Of a DNA stretch of 64,000 nucleotides, positions 32,538 through 54,821 are shown piece after piece. The DNA is from Rhodospirillaceae bacterium (GTDB taxonomy: Bacteria > Pseudomonadota > Alphaproteobacteria > TMED109): contig CACEBX010000001.1 of assembly GCA_902557845.1 (NCBI GenBank), positions 62,001-126,000 of the forward strand, in the 5' to 3' direction. The notes beneath the pieces are model-generated. The model was not told where the DNA came from and did no database searches. It worked only from the letters and a program-made list of their open reading frames with translations. Within the stretch, counting starts at the first letter, position 1. Each line of letters starts with the position of its first letter. The translations under genes were made by a program, and so were the position numbers.

Positions 32538-33474
32538 TTTAAAAATTGCCGTACAAATGGACCCACATGAGCTTCTTGATAAGCAGGCTGATAGCACTTT
32601 TGCTTTAATCGAAGCAGCTATTAAAAAATCATATAAAGTCCACATCTATACTGTAGATGACTTAACTCTTGAAAAGAATGATTTGAAAGTTTTTTGTAAA
32701 GAAGTAAAAGATATTGATATTAACAAAATAGATTTTATAAAGCTATCTGAGAAAAAAAGAAAATCCTTAAAATCATTTGACGTAATTTTGATAAGACAAG
32801 ACCCTCCTTTTAATATGAAATATCTAACTGCTACATACCTTTTAGAAAAAGTCCAAGGGAAAACTATAGTTTTGAATAAACCTTCTTCTATAAGAAATTC
32901 TCCTGAAAAGCTATTAGTAACAAATTTTTATGATTTAATGCCACCAACCATAATTTCAAGAAATGAAATAGAAATTCAGAACTTTTTAGAAGTCCACAAG
33001 GAGTGCATCATTAAGCCTCTTTATGGGAATGGAGGTAAAGATGTTTTTTTTACATCTATAGATGATCCAAATTTGAGCGTAATTATAGAAAAGTTTTTAG
33101 AACAAGAAGAACATTTTATTATCCAAAAATTTATAAAAGGAGTTTCAAAAGGAGACAAAAGGATACTATTGATAAATGGTGATCCAGTTGGCGCAATAAA
33201 CAGAGTACCAAACAAAAGTGAGATAAGGGCAAATCTTCATATTGGGGGAAGAGCAAAAAAAACAACTCTCTCCAAAAATGATTTAAAAATTTGTCGAAGA
33301 ATTAAAAAAACTTTACAAGAAAAAGAGCTATTTTTTGCCGGCATTGATGTAATAGATAGCTACTTAACGGAAATAAATGTTACTTCCCCTACCTGCATTA
33401 GAGAAATTGACTATTTTAATAGAGATAACATTGCAGGTAAGTTTTGGAAAAGTGTTATAAAAATATATTTTTGA
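32530..33474 (+). CDS. gshB: Glutathione synthetase
   Basis: A 314-residue ATP-grasp enzyme joining gamma-glutamylcysteine and glycine. IAVQMDPHELLDKQADSTF is near the start, IRQDPPFNMKYLTATYLLE near 95, and IIKPLYGNGGKDVFF near 158 is the ATP-grasp loop. IQKFIKGVSKGDKRILLINGDPVGAI is near 200, and INVTSPTCIREID near 285 carries the metal ligands. It is the last gene of the rsmI unit and ends exactly where the HIT gene on the other strand ends. Confidence 0.95.
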   Translation: MSNLKIAVQMDPHELLDKQADSTFALIEAAIKKSYKVHIYTVDDLTLEKNDLKVFCKEVKDIDINKIDFIKLSEKKRKSLKSFDVILIRQDPPFNMKYLTATYLLEKVQGKTIVLNKPSSIRNSPEKLLVTNFYDLMPPTIISRNEIEIQNFLEVHKECIIKPLYGNGGKDVFFTSIDDPNLSVIIEKFLEQEEHFIIQKFIKGVSKGDKRILLINGDPVGAINRVPNKSEIRANLHIGGRAKKTTLSKNDLKICRRIKKTLQEKELFFAGIDVIDSYLTEINVTSPTCIREIDYFNRDNIAGKFWKSVIKIYF

Positions 33475-39089: not shown

Positions 39090-40099
39090 CTATTTTTTTT
39101 GGATTAATTTCCAAGTGTATATTTTCTCATTTAATCGCGCGGCTTTCTTTTCAGATTTATAACCAAAACCTGTAAACAAATCAATTCTACTTTTTCCCTT
39201 TATTGCAGAACCTTCATCGTGAGCTACTCCTAAAAAAATATTTTTTTTGTTGCTAGTACTTTGAATTATAATTGCTTCTCCATTTTTAATATACTTTTTA
39301 TCTACCGCTATACTCACATTTGGAACTAGGTCTACTTTAGCGCTTCCTTTTATTTCACCAGTATATTCCTCAAAAAATATATACCTTTCATTCATGTTCA
39401 TAAATTTTCTAGATATTTTTTTATCTTTATACAACCAATTTTTAATTTTATGCATATCAAGTTCTTCTTTTTTTATAAAACCATGCTTTATTAAGATTTT
39501 CCCCAAAGAAGAATAGCTTTTTTCATTACTACCAGCATATCTCACCTTTATAACTTTATTGTTTTCTAGTAACAACCTTCCCGAACCTTGAATGTGCAAA
39601 AAGTAAGCTTCTATTTCATTTTCTACCCAAGCAATCTCTAAATTATTATTTTTAAAATGTCCTTCGTTAATTACCTTTCTAGAAATTTTGTAATCAGTTT
39701 TTTCAGAAATAGTTTTAGGGTGTCTGTATATCGGGTATGAATTTTTTTTAGGATAATTGTATGCTTTGATTGCTGGCTCATAATAACCTGTTAACAATCC
39801 TTTTTTATCATTAGGCTTGTCTCCTGTTATTGCTATAAAATCAAAATTTTTATCAATATCCCTAAAAAATTTATCGTATTCAGATGCTTTATATTTATCG
39901 CAAGTCTTTTGGTAAGGATGTGTCCTCCCGATTTTTTTAAACTCAAAACAATCTTTAAAAATTGCTTTTACTGCCATATCTAAATTTTTTTTATTTTCAC
40001 TTAAATATTTAAATGGGCTGGCATATTTGATGGAAGGCTTGTAAAAATTAGTACAGCTAGCAAAAAAAAAACCCCTAACATTAGGCTAATTATTTTCAC
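39090..40099 (-). CDS. mltA: MltA-type membrane-bound lytic murein transglycosylase lipoprotein, broken by an apparent frameshift in its signal peptide
   Basis: The body is a clear MltA: KGLLTGYYEP near the start, YFLHIQGSGRLLLE in the middle, and a 3D-domain end with AHDEGSAIKGKSRIDLFTGFG. It cuts peptidoglycan glycan strands with 1,6-anhydro product formation. The first ATG of this frame is 39977, but conserved protein sequence continues upstream to an ASC lipobox at about 40055 and meets a stop (40086-40088) with no start between. In the neighbouring frame GTG at 40099 begins VKIISLMLGVFF. One extra base in the A10/T10 run (40062-40071) would join the two into a normal lipoprotein signal ending FFASC. 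GTG overlaps the timA stop as GTGA. Either a real shift, slippage-corrected expression, or an assembly error. Confidence 0.8.
40062..40071. repeat. A10 homopolymer at the mltA frame break
   Basis: Ten consecutive A on the plus strand (T on the coding strand) lie inside the mltA signal-peptide region. Eleven (or eight) would restore a single frame. Other 10-base runs in this window, in rdgB, the aminotransferase and the amidase, are in frame, so this one stands out. Confidence 0.9.
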
Positions 40100-40659
40100 T
40101 CTGATGTAACCTCAGATAATATCCAAGTAGGATCGTTGCTTCCTATAATTTTTTCAAAAGTCCAAACATCTTTAACATCAATTGTTTCTTCTTTCTTTTC
40201 TTGTATATTTTTTTGTGTAGATAAAAACATTACTTTTATCTTTGCAAGCTTCTTGACCATTTCTATTTTAATTATGGAGGATTTAACATTAGTTATTTGA
40301 AATGCTTTAACTTTGCTTTGTTTCTCTGTTTGTTCTTGAAAAGCCTTTAAAACCTTTGGGCTTAGAAGACGTTCAGCAGACTCTATATTATTATCTTTAT
40401 AAGAAGAAACTATGATTTTAAAAGCGCTTTCTGCTCCATGTAAAAATGACTCTATAGTGAAACCTTTATCTGCATTAATAAGTTCCTCTTCATTGCTGTT
40501 ATGTTTTGTGTCATAATTTTCATTATTGTTATTTACAAACTTAACTTTTTCATCTTGTGAATCTTTGCTCTCTATATTAGCTTTTTTTCCTAAAACCCTA
40601 TATAAATTAGCCGCTAGCACTCCAGCAATAATAGCAAATATAATAATGTCTATATACAG
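40096..40659 (-). CDS. Tim44-like domain membrane-anchored protein (TimA), apparent non-ATG start
   Basis: A 187-residue protein: an N-terminal membrane helix (DIIIFAIIAGVLAANLYRVLG), a charged linker and a C-terminal Tim44/TimA domain (FLHGAESAFKIIVSSYKDNNIESAERLLSPKVLKAFQ onward). It is likely an inner-membrane protein of import or quality-control type; the bacterial role is uncertain. The first usual start is GTG at 40620, which would cut the helix in half. Upstream, in frame, stand ATT (40662) and CTG (40659) after a GAGAGG box, bounded by a stop at 40665-40663. CTG has the best six-base spacing. TATAAT lies at 40684-40679. It precedes mltA with a 4-bp overlap. Confidence 0.75.
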   Translation of the reverse strand: MYIDIIIFAIIAGVLAANLYRVLGKKANIESKDSQDEKVKFVNNNNENYDTKHNSNEEELINADKGFTIESFLHGAESAFKIIVSSYKDNNIESAERLLSPKVLKAFQEQTEKQSKVKAFQITNVKSSIIKIEMVKKLAKIKVMFLSTQKNIQEKKEETIDVKDVWTFEKIIGSNDPTWILSEVTSE

Positions 40660-40758
40660 AATTTACCTCTCAAAAAAAATTATACTATATATATCTATAA
40701 TTTTTTTATTAAATAATGTAAATACAAATTATTAATTAATAATTGACAAATGAAAAAC

Positions 40759-41427
40759 CTACCAATAGTTCATTTTAAGGAATTTTAATAACCTATCGTG
40801 ATCTTGAGTTTCTTTTTTATCTGCAGATATTATTTTTTTTGAATATGAAAACTCTTTGCTTACAAAGGTTTTTTCAAACAACTTGCTCTTTGTCGTCTCT
40901 AGCCCTATATCTTTTTGTCTACCTCCATTCATTTCAAGAAAAACATCTGCAAGCAGCTCTGCATCTAGTAATGCTCCATGTTTTTTTCTTCTTGTAACGT
41001 CAATATGATATCTTTTGCACAAAGCGTCTAAATTATTAGCTGCACCTGGAAATATTTTTCTTGCCAATAAAAGCGTATCTAAGACTTTAAACTCTAGTAA
41101 GTTTTTTTTAGAGGCAGCATCTAGTTCATAATTTAAAAACCCAAGGTCAAACTTGGCATTATGTATAACTAGCTCAGAGCCTTTAATAAAATCTAAAAAT
41201 TTATCTGCTATTGATAAAAATATTGGTTTATCATATAAGAATTCATCAGTTAGTCCGTGAATTTTAAAAGCTTCTTCTGGCATTTTTCTGTTTGGATTTA
41301 TATATTGTTGAAAAATTTTACCAGTAGGATAATTATTTTCTAATTCCACACATCCTATTTCTACTATTTTATGACCTTTTGAAGGTTCTAGTCCTGTTGT
41401 TTCTATATCTAATGTAACTCTTCTCAT
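40759..41427 (-). CDS. dnaQ: DNA polymerase III epsilon (proofreading) subunit DnaQ
   Basis: A 222-residue DEDDh 3-prime to 5-prime exonuclease. VTLDIETTGLEPSKGHKIVEIG gives the ExoI Asp-Glu pair, VIHNAKFDLGFLNYEL near 92 ExoII, and RKKHGALLDAELLADV near 150 ExoIII with the catalytic histidine. It proofreads within the replicase. The start overlaps coaE by 4 bp. The secB gene usually found between dnaQ and timA is missing; only about 95 bp remain there. Confidence 0.95.
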   Translation of the reverse strand: MRRVTLDIETTGLEPSKGHKIVEIGCVELENNYPTGKIFQQYINPNRKMPEEAFKIHGLTDEFLYDKPIFLSIADKFLDFIKGSELVIHNAKFDLGFLNYELDAASKKNLLEFKVLDTLLLARKIFPGAANNLDALCKRYHIDVTRRKKHGALLDAELLADVFLEMNGGRQKDIGLETTKSKLFEKTFVSKEFSYSKKIISADKKETQDHDRLLKFLKMNYW

Positions 41428-42053
41428 TTTTGAAAGTTAAGTATTATTTTACTATTAGGTCTGTTTTTAGCATCAAAACTCTTTTTTAATACACCAATAA
41501 TTTTATTAAAAACGTACCTTTTTCCTCTATCAGTATTAATAATTAAATCTGCTAATTTTTTTTTAATTTTGTCATCTAGTTGTTGTTTTTTTGTTAGCAT
41601 CAATCTTTTTTCATTCCAGCCTTTTCTTTTCAAAACTCTATTTTCCTGTATTTTTTTTGAGCAAGTCACTAAAATTATTTTATCATATTTAGTTTTATTG
41701 TCTTTCTCAAAAAGCAAAGGTACATCAAATACAACAACCTTTTTTTTCTCCCTAAACTTTTTACGTATCCAATAGTATCTATTTATTTTTAAATGTTTAT
41801 AGATAATTTTTTCTAATATCTTTAGCCTTTCAGGATCTTCAAAAGCTATTTCTGCCAATTTTTGTTTCACCAAACTGTTATTAATAAATGCATTAGGGAA
41901 AGCTGTTTTTATTTTTTCAATTACTATTTTTTTTTTATAGATTTGTTTTACTTGATAATCACTATCAAAGACTGGAACATTATTTTTTTTGAAAAAATTG
42001 CTTGTTTCTGTTTTTCCGGCACCTACAGAACCTGTTAAACCAATTACTATCAT
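41424..42053 (-). CDS. coaE: Dephospho-CoA kinase CoaE
   Basis: A 209-residue P-loop kinase for the last step of CoA synthesis. GLTGSVGAGKTETSNFF carries Walker A near residue 8, VFDSDYQVKQIY near 28 and VVFDVPLLFEKDNK near 105. The C-terminal part is Lys-rich. Overlaps of 4 bp with both dnaQ and aroE point to a coupled operon. Confidence 0.93.
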   Translation of the reverse strand: MIVIGLTGSVGAGKTETSNFFKKNNVPVFDSDYQVKQIYKKKIVIEKIKTAFPNAFINNSLVKQKLAEIAFEDPERLKILEKIIYKHLKINRYYWIRKKFREKKKVVVFDVPLLFEKDNKTKYDKIILVTCSKKIQENRVLKRKGWNEKRLMLTKKQQLDDKIKKKLADLIINTDRGKRYVFNKIIGVLKKSFDAKNRPNSKIILNFQK

Positions 42054-42874
42054 AGTTTTTTAATGTTTTTTTTTATTTTAGATATCAAATAACTACTCAA
42101 TTCTGGTTTTATGTTAAACCAAATTTTAAAACTTTCTTGTGCTTGCCCTAAAAACATTGATAAGCCTGTTACATATTTAAGTTTTTGTTTCTTTGCATCT
42201 TTTATAAGCTTTGTCTCTACAGGATTATAAACTATGTCATATATTACAGTTTCTCTGTTAACCTTCTTCAATGAAACAGGTAACGCTGGATAACCTATCA
42301 TACCTAAACTAGTTGTATTTACTATTAGGCCGGCATTGTTTATTAATTCATTATTAATCCAATTTTCTGCATAAACTTTTTGATATTTTCTTGCTATTTT
42401 ACTTGCTTTACTTTTTGTTCTATTCATTAGATAAATCTCTTTAACACCAATTAACCGTAAGCTGTAAACTACTGCTTCTGCTGATCCACCTGCTCCTAAA
42501 ACTATTGCTGGTTTATTTTTATCTAATTTTATTTTTTTTAGTCCTAACAAGAAACCTGTTACATCAGTATTATATCCTTCTAAAACACCTTCTTTATTAT
42601 TTATAGTGTTTACTGCCTGTAACATTTCTGTAGTTTTATCAGTTTTATCTAAATGCCTGATTATTTTTTTTTTGTATGGTATTGTTACATTTAGTCCCTT
42701 TAATCCAAGTGTTTTAATTGCAGTTTTTATATTATCTATATTTGCTAATTGAAATTTACAGTAATAGTTTTCTAAATTATGTTTTTTTATCCAATAGTTA
42801 TGCAAAACTGGTGACATTGATTGCTTTAAAGGGTTTCCTAAAATTCCTAAAACTTTGTATTGCTTACTTTTCAT
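42050..42874 (-). CDS. aroE: Shikimate dehydrogenase AroE
   Basis: A 274-residue NADP-dependent dehydrogenase of the shikimate pathway. ILGNPLKQSMSPVLHNYW at the start binds shikimate, LKGLNVTIPYKKKI near 60 carries the catalytic lysine, AIVLGAGGSAEAVVYSL near 125 binds NADP, and MNRTKSKASKIA near 150 contains the NRT motif. It overlaps the PPSR gene by 11 bp; the maf gene that usually lies between them is absent. Confidence 0.95.
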   Translation of the reverse strand: MKSKQYKVLGILGNPLKQSMSPVLHNYWIKKHNLENYYCKFQLANIDNIKTAIKTLGLKGLNVTIPYKKKIIRHLDKTDKTTEMLQAVNTINNKEGVLEGYNTDVTGFLLGLKKIKLDKNKPAIVLGAGGSAEAVVYSLRLIGVKEIYLMNRTKSKASKIARKYQKVYAENWINNELINNAGLIVNTTSLGMIGYPALPVSLKKVNRETVIYDIVYNPVETKLIKDAKKQKLKYVTGLSMFLGQAQESFKIWFNIKPELSSYLISKIKKNIKKL

Positions 42875-43703
42875 TATTTGATTCTTTGCTTTTAAAAATT
42901 TTTAAATATTCTATTGCTGTAGCTGCAATTTCTTCTATAGATTTTTTTGTTACATCAATAGTAGACCATTTATTTTTAGCACATATTTTCTTTGCTTCTG
43001 CTATCTCTTTTTTTAGAACGTCAATATCTATGTAATTGGTAGACCGATCTTCCTTTAAACTTTTTAATCTTGATGTTCTTATCTGCTGTAACCTTTCTGG
43101 GCTAGCAAAAAGACCTATAACTAAAGTTCTCTTGTTAATGTTTGATAGATTTAATGTCTGGTTTAAAACAAATGGTATATTGGCAACTTTGTATCCTTGG
43201 TTAGCTAAATATATTGAAGTTGGAGTTTTAGAAGTTCTTGATGCTCCAAAAAAAATAATATCAGCTTGTGCTAGGTTCAAATTTCTTTGGCCATCATCAT
43301 TAGCTATTGCATATTGCAAAGATTCAATTCTATCAAAATAATCTTTTGAAAGAGAGTGCTGTTTGCCAGGAACTTGTCCAACGTCTGGCTTAATTTCGTA
43401 AAATTCTTTAATTTTATTAATTGTGTTGTCCAAAACATTGTGAGCGATAACATTTATAGAGCTACACTTATCTTTTAAGTAATTTTCTAACTTTAGATTT
43501 ATCATCGTATATAATACTATGCCCGGGTTGTGAACTATAACCTTTACAATATTATCTATCTGCTTCTCTGTTCTTATTAAGGCCCATTTATTTTCAAGAA
43601 AGTTTATATTTTCAAACCTAGCATATATTGATCTTGCAATAGTTGATACTGTTTCTCCTGTAGAGTCTGAAATAAGATAAATATGTTGATTAGCTGTGGA
43701 CAT
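42864..43703 (-). CDS. Pyruvate, phosphate/water dikinase regulatory protein (DUF299)
   Basis: A 279-residue PPSR/PDRP-type bifunctional kinase-phosphorylase. IYLISDSTGETVSTIARS opens it, GASRTSKTPTSIYLANQGYKVANIPFV near 150-178 is the P-loop-like region, and the C-terminal SIEEIAATAIEYL helix closes it. It phosphorylates and dephosphorylates a threonine of PEP synthase or PPDK, adjusting gluconeogenic flux. This gene is the homologue that borders oriC in Caulobacter and Rickettsia, so the gap to its right is the presumed origin. Confidence 0.92.
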   Translation of the reverse strand: MSTANQHIYLISDSTGETVSTIARSIYARFENINFLENKWALIRTEKQIDNIVKVIVHNPGIVLYTMINLKLENYLKDKCSSINVIAHNVLDNTINKIKEFYEIKPDVGQVPGKQHSLSKDYFDRIESLQYAIANDDGQRNLNLAQADIIFFGASRTSKTPTSIYLANQGYKVANIPFVLNQTLNLSNINKRTLVIGLFASPERLQQIRTSRLKSLKEDRSTNYIDIDVLKKEIAEAKKICAKNKWSTIDVTKKSIEEIAATAIEYLKIFKSKESNNEK

Positions 43704-53954: not shown

Positions 53955-54821
53955 ATTACAAAAAAAAGATTAAAAACAGGTTTAAATATTCTATTAGGAG
54001 ATGACAAAAAGCCTAAAACTACTATAGAACAAAACATTCAGAAAACTAAAATTGACTTGAGTTTAATTGAAGCTAACTCAAACCAACCTAGAAAAACTTT
54101 CAATGAGGAAAAATTATTAGAGTTATCAAACTCTATTAAAAATATTGGTCAAATTAATCCAATAATAGTAAGAGAAAGTCCAAAAAATAAAAATAAGTAT
54201 ATAGTAGTTGCTGGAGAAAGAAGGTGGAGAGCCTCTAAAATAGCAGGTTTAAAAAATATTGATGTAATTATTAGCAATAAAAGTGAAAAACTATCAAGTC
54301 TAGCATCAGTAATAGAAAATGTTCAAAGAGAAGACTTAAACTCTTTAGAAGAGGCAGAAGCATATAATAGTCTTATAAATGAACATGACTTAACACATGA
54401 AGAAATTTCTAAATTTACTGGAAAGTCAAGGAGCCATATTTCAAATTTTATACGTATTGTAGGACTTCCTGAAGATACTAAAAAATTATTAAAGGAGAAC
54501 AAGATAACTTTTGGACATGCTAGGGCATTATTATCATCAAAAAATATTAGCAAAATGGCAAGTATAGTTTCTAAAAATAACCTTAATGTAAGACAAACAG
54601 AGGCACTAATAAAAGAAGAGCAACAAAATCTTAGTCATAAAAATACAGATAATAATGAAAATGAAAAGGATCCAAACATAGCAGATTATGAGAAATATTT
54701 ATCCTTAAAGCTAGGTTATGAAGTACAAATTAAAGACAAAAAGGGAAAAGGTGTTTTATCAGTTAAATATAAAACCTTAGACCAACTTGAAGAAATTATA
54801 TCAATCTTTAATAAGAAATAA
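53955..54821 (+). CDS. parB: Chromosome partitioning protein ParB, apparent ATT start
   Basis: A 288-residue ParB. NQPRKTFNEEKLLELSNSIKNIGQINPIIVR and GERRWRASKIAGL form the CTP-binding N-domain, ENVQREDLNSLEEA follows, and SRSHISNFIRIVGLP is the helix-turn-helix. It clamps onto parS and spreads. The first conventional start is TTG at 54057, which would remove the conserved KKRLKTGLNILLG start (family: KKRLGRGLDALLG). The frame extends cleanly to ATT at 53955, six bases after AAGGAG (53943-53948), with another ATT at 53952. No ATG, GTG or TTG lies between. Confidence 0.9.
   Translation: MTKKRLKTGLNILLGDDKKPKTTIEQNIQKTKIDLSLIEANSNQPRKTFNEEKLLELSNSIKNIGQINPIIVRESPKNKNKYIVVAGERRWRASKIAGLKNIDVIISNKSEKLSSLASVIENVQREDLNSLEEAEAYNSLINEHDLTHEEISKFTGKSRSHISNFIRIVGLPEDTKKLLKENKITFGHARALLSSKNISKMASIVSKNNLNVRQTEALIKEEQQNLSHKNTDNNENEKDPNIADYEKYLSLKLGYEVQIKDKKGKGVLSVKYKTLDQLEEIISIFNKK

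Follow-up and report, generated by a model that had tools for sequence, protein, structure and literature searches.

A frame break at a T run within the lipoprotein signal of mltA recurs in eight related marine Alphaproteobacteria

The mltA locus and its upstream neighbour

The minus strand of the 64,000-nucleotide stretch of Rhodospirillaceae DNA analysed here (the window) carries a Tim44-like gene (40096–40659; Pfam Tim44, E = 9e-16) and, directly downstream, an MltA coding body of 323 codons, counted from the lipobox, plus stop (39090–40061). The body matches PF03562 (MltA domain; E = 5e-37, 127.8 bits against a curated cut-off of 24.3) and PF06725 (3D domain; E = 2e-13, 50.9 bits against a curated cut-off of 23.8), and its relatives in the PDB include 6qk4, 2g5d and 2ae0, with MltA chains down to E = 2.6e-31. 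With both cut-offs exceeded, domain content assigns it to the MltA lytic transglycosylases, and lytic activity is predicted. It has the MltA insert domain and the 3D domain in common with MltA of Escherichia coli (2ae0) and its relatives 6qk4 and Neisseria GNA33 (2g5d) but, unlike these, has its start codon and body in separate frames and a short, divergent N-terminal region.

The TGA stop of the Tim44-like gene (40098–40096) overlaps the start codon GTG 40099 as GTGA. From this GTG the minus strand reads GTGAAAATAATTAGCCTAATGTTAGGGG-T10-GCTAGCTGTACT; after GTGAAAATAATTAGCCTAATGTTAGGGG and the ten T it continues GCTAGCTGT. The start-frame segment (40003–40099) has a lysine in its n-region and the hydrophobic signal peptide VKIISLMLGVFF. 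It translates as VKIISLMLGVFFLLAVLIFTSLPSNMPAHLNI (also given as VKIISLMLGVFFLLAVL..., ending at 40001), its out-of-frame continuation running to a TAA stop at 40003–40001. The FFFASC lipobox (A-S-C, 40053–40061; Cys codon TGT, 40055–40053) and the entire MltA body lie in a different frame, and the switch falls within the T run, which is exactly ten bases long (40071–40062; A10 on the plus strand). Upstream, the MltA frame stays open as far as TAG 40088–40086, and no ATG, GTG or TTG occurs between this stop and ATG 39977 (39975–39977), 27 codons past the Cys. Relatives do not conserve this ATG, and its product would be without a lipobox.

The first-pass annotation had reported a one-base break between GTG 40099 and the ASC/MltA frame; its description and coordinates are correct, and the phenomenon is larger than it noted. 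It had placed the break in an A10 run, which is right for position and length on the plus strand, whereas the coding strand carries T. Its suggestion that one added base joins the frames is also borne out, as one extra T fuses GTG...GVFFF-ASC-MltA into a single frame. The elements of a lipoprotein signal, which should share one frame (n-region, hydrophobic core and lipobox Cys), are thus spread over two, here and in all eight species described below, and come together only once one base is shifted. Once mended, the signal resembles the in-frame lipoprotein signals found elsewhere in the same genomes, for example MKTFLFFFVLIFLGSC.

The Tim44-like gene itself has an apparent CTG start (40659–40657), with no in-frame ATG, GTG or TTG before GTG 40620. 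This CTG lies behind a purine-rich stretch and is conserved in all eight lineage species; in other genera of the family the gene starts with ATG, GTG or TTG one codon further upstream. Two other genes of the window also have unusual starts. An rdgB-like gene on the plus strand (27866) opens with ATA (IKIILATQNKNK) behind AAGGAG, with ATT in its G010 relative, and the first canonical start in its frame does not come before residue 115. In G000, G001 and G002, a parB-like gene (about 53960–54040, plus strand) has an apparent ATT start (ATT ACA AAA AAA) preceded by an AAGGAG/GGAGGAG motif; its listed TTG start at 54057 truncates the conserved N-terminus.

Recurrence in eight species and selection on the body

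The family comprises 28 genomes in our set, and close MltA relatives were drawn from three of its genera (g1, g3 and g8), giving eight species including this one, each represented by one genome. An alignment-based search of the genome contigs returned the same seven relatives and outgroups, and no additional lineage member. Both mltA and a matching Tim44 gene are missing from G003, G008, G025 and four g5 genomes, and G019 has only an end fragment of mltA cut at a contig end; these genomes, 54–74% complete, are hence uninformative.

All eight species have the same layout: a start codon followed by K or R, a hydrophobic stretch, a T run and, out of frame, the lipobox Cys and an intact MltA body. 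The start codons (GTG, GTG, ATG, ATG, TTG, ATG, TTG and ATG) each overlap or touch the Tim44 stop, and the runs at the junction are T10, T10, T9, T9, T11+T10, T10, T13 and T10. The distance from start to body, modulo 3, is 2, 1, 1, 2, 2, 1, 2 and 2. No species is in frame; five require one added base (or the loss of two) and three the loss of one (or two added). Across the species the start-frame half keeps the pattern [M/V/L][K/R] plus a hydrophobic segment (MKFYNFFFLMFFF, MRFLSIYIIMFFF, MKNLIFIMFFF and MRILVLFFCFFF, among others), and the lipobox Cys is invariant, preceded by S, N or G. The eight MltA proteins form one clade in a protein tree (support 98/99), so a single origin suffices.

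All eight bodies are free of stops, and the invariant columns of their alignment include the segments GYYEP, HIQGSGRL and AIKG..RIDLF. With substitutions counted by the simple Nei–Gojobori method, omega is 0.12 between this genome and L002 (dS 1.3) and 0.165 between L005 and L007 (dS 0.46), with a range of 0.12–0.17 in the closest pairs; values of 0.14–0.24 in more distant pairs are less reliable, as dS is saturated. These values indicate that the bodies evolve under purifying selection. Decaying sequence downstream of a fixed break, an outcome the first-pass annotation had raised, is refuted by the low omega in the closest pairs, the lack of stops and the invariant catalytic-domain residues.

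An unusual or internal start in the MltA frame could in principle yield a soluble or cytoplasmic enzyme and make the start-frame peptide irrelevant. Neighbouring genes do conserve such starts (CTG in Tim44, ATT in parB, ATA/ATT in rdgB), and ATG 39977 is present in this genome. However, the open stretch of the MltA frame ahead of the Cys measures just 18 nucleotides in L003 and 15–18 in L006, and nearly all of this is T run. Because the two frames overlap there only at the run, a signal peptide could not be supplied by any start codon, canonical or not, and the run is the sole possible place of the frame switch; unusual start codons were rejected as an explanation on these two loci. Internal start positions are not conserved. 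The first canonical start of L003 falls at residue 139 past the Cys, within the catalytic MltA domain and beyond GYYEP, which rules out an internal start as the source of the enzyme. Either kind of start would also leave the conserved lipobox Cys and the K/R-hydrophobic segment without function, and we consider this explanation very unlikely.

Control loci and the question of artefact

An in-frame start with a hydrophobic N-terminus was found at 105 of 114 mltA loci from other Alphaproteobacteria and relatives, a set that includes some duplicates. The failures are seven lineage members, one duplicate of the present locus and one GC-rich locus (L115), in which the wrong ORF was probably picked. 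L008 passes solely through a TTG that lies six codons ahead of the Cys. Family members from other genera (g2, g4 and g5) have mltA in frame.

We scanned about 426 kb of five genomes, in stretches of five contigs, for other breaks. Among about 70 other runs of at least 10 A/T within genes, one lies at a frame break: an A12 run in an MFS-type transporter gene of G002 (L133; G002:C24, joined coordinate about 33333–33365) that is intact in G000. This split transporter is a second homopolymer-break candidate, in a single genome. Another MFS-type transporter gene is broken into two ORFs, in G001 alone (L127; G001:C6, about 32632), with no long homopolymer at the site. A run of T9 or longer occurs within the first 60 nucleotides in 5 of 78 other genes with hydrophobic N-termini on these contigs, compared with 8 of 8 for mltA; the species are related, so multiplying probabilities gives no proper p-value, but synonymous sites are near saturation in most pairs. 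If mltA broke at the background rate of breaks at runs, as estimated from these contigs, a break in all eight species would be inconceivable.

Because errors are common at homopolymers, and the A12 run in G002 likewise breaks a gene, we weighed whether the break reflects a pseudogene or an error of assembly or sequencing. The relatives' assemblies comprise marine metagenome-assembled genomes (NP101, SP81, SP3058 and MED606) and AG-919-A04, AG-919-G06 and AG-430-C17, which we take from their names to be single-cell genomes. The break thus recurs in eight independent assemblies of two kinds, about 105 loci are in frame and the other long runs are intact, which together practically exclude a sequencing error, including the consensus error considered at first pass. 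With low omega and stop-free bodies arguing against a pseudogene as well, we give artefact and decay together very little credence.

Restoring the reading frame

We propose, with a probability of roughly 60%, that this lineage carries mltA as a split-frame gene, the frame being restored by RNA polymerase slippage on the T run. Translation would start at GTG 40099, and the ribosome would read the n-region and hydrophobic core; the frame would be corrected within the run, and the lipobox and MltA body would be read afterwards. The correction would most likely take place during transcription, when RNA polymerase, slipping on at least nine T, would produce mRNAs of varying run length. By analogy with known cases, perhaps a tenth to a half of these might code for the full lipoprotein, and on the remainder translation would end a few to about 20 codons further on. 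The cell would probably have to slip while copying the run to make the enzyme at all. Because the mRNA pool would be of mixed length, the sign of the genomic error would matter little, which fits five species that need one added base and three that need one fewer (or two more).

In E. coli and Buchnera, single-base insertions climb exponentially as A/T runs lengthen (PMC5574713). Transcripts of runs of nine A or nine T carry as many as six additional bases, and 12–50% of the transcripts of broken symbiont genes are corrected (PMC5009743); slippage at the A11 run of tssM is about 20% (PMC4256274). Deletions are seldom linked to homopolymer runs (PMC5574713), so the three species that lack the simple insertion solution would rely on +2 insertions. 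We favour RNA polymerase slippage on three grounds: the run has a length and composition known to induce it, species differ in the sign of the error, and a search for stimulators of ribosomal frameshifting found nothing consistent. Genes expressed by transcriptional slippage have an A/T run of about nine or more at the junction and flanks conserved as protein; here the run is T9–T13 in all eight species and both flanks are conserved, and mltA is likely, on sequence grounds, to belong among them. The in-frame TTG of L008 is a point against this reading, albeit one without an n-region.

The ribosome might instead slip on a faithful mRNA, with tRNA-Phe re-pairing with UUU in a shifted register of the U run. 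Tandem UUU codons can re-pair in any register, and the −1 shift that is common for ribosomes would serve five of the eight species, but the other three need +1 or −2. The heptamer register is not uniform, and no Shine–Dalgarno-like element stands at a fixed upstream spacing. Downstream RNA structure that could act as a stimulator is not consistent across the species: L008 alone has a z-score of −3.7 at 60 nucleotides, and the others are near 0. Programmed ribosomal frameshifting entails a uniform direction and conserved stimulators; with offsets of both signs at this junction, ribosomal slippage appears improbable.

Run length in the DNA could also switch mltA on and off by replicative phase variation, the sequenced genomes happening to be off. 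Runs of T9–T13 are mutable, their lengths vary between the species, and homopolymer-switched lipoproteins are known. In P78 of Mycoplasma fermentans, an example cited in PMC3711429, the frame of a lipoprotein gene likewise changes at a homopolymer close to its 5' end, but on and off alleles are both seen. By contrast, none of our eight genomes, one per species, is on, where about one-third would be expected (p about 0.04, (2/3)^8, if the three states are equally likely). Three of the genomes are single-cell (AG-430-C17, AG-919-A04 and AG-919-G06), MltA is a periplasmic housekeeping enzyme rather than a surface antigen, and the other long runs of the same contigs remain in frame. We regard a phase-variable switch as improbable. 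The first-pass annotation had left open an on/off switch or a slippage-rescued gene; for the former, no genome of the eight shows the on state, and the latter gains indirect support from the recurrence in eight species, the conservation of both halves and the T9–T13 runs at the junction.

For the slippage reading, zero in-frame species of eight means that the in-frame state is selected against or that the model lacks something. The p of about 0.04 is our only hint of such selection, for example because an excess of a wall-cutting enzyme might be harmful. Slippage of limited efficiency could then serve to hold this enzyme at a low amount.

Several known systems resemble this one in part. The slippage-rescued cell-wall and histidine genes of Buchnera and Blochmannia, as cited in PMC5009743, likewise combine an AT-rich genome, a break at a long homopolymer (there poly(A) runs) and a conserved body, with a cell-wall gene among them. 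Unlike those, the present bacteria are marine and not known as endosymbionts, the coding strand carries a T run, and the break lies inside a lipoprotein signal peptide and is kept across at least three genera with changing sign of the error. The comparison with endosymbionts drawn in the first-pass annotation therefore holds as an analogy only; the relatives are marine metagenome-assembled and single-cell genomes, and nothing points to a host. Shigella mxiE/spa13, Thermus dnaX and Citrobacter tssM (PMC5009743, PMC4256274) also have an A/T run at the junction, reach the downstream ORF through slipped mRNA only and have no stimulators of programmed ribosomal frameshifting. They give two useful products or a regulated one, whereas the unslipped product of mltA is a peptide of 9–32 residues, which would make slippage a requirement for producing any enzyme. 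The main text of a survey that covered conserved frame transitions across 1106 prokaryotic genomes (PMC3711429) does not feature a lytic transglycosylase. Literature searches for this lineage or for mltA slippage returned nothing relevant.

Broken genes rescued by slippage have mostly been viewed as tolerated damage in single endosymbiont genomes. What is new here is the marine setting without sign of a host, a break within a lipoprotein signal, before any functional product, and its retention across genera with changing sign. We offer tentatively, as a possibility that goes well beyond the slippage proposal, that in a marine alphaproteobacterial lineage an envelope enzyme has stayed permanently out of frame from a time before the genera of the lineage diverged. 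Slippage would be obligatory for its expression and possibly dose-limiting, selection would act against the in-frame state, and the Tim44-like gene, with its weak CTG start, would belong to the same low-expression arrangement. If this is true, slippage can become the normal expression route of a conserved gene, and gene callers may be losing or truncating such genes. For slippage measurements, window positions 39985–43255 offer a natural control set: dense A/T runs of 8–10 on the coding strands of in-frame genes (coaE and aroE).
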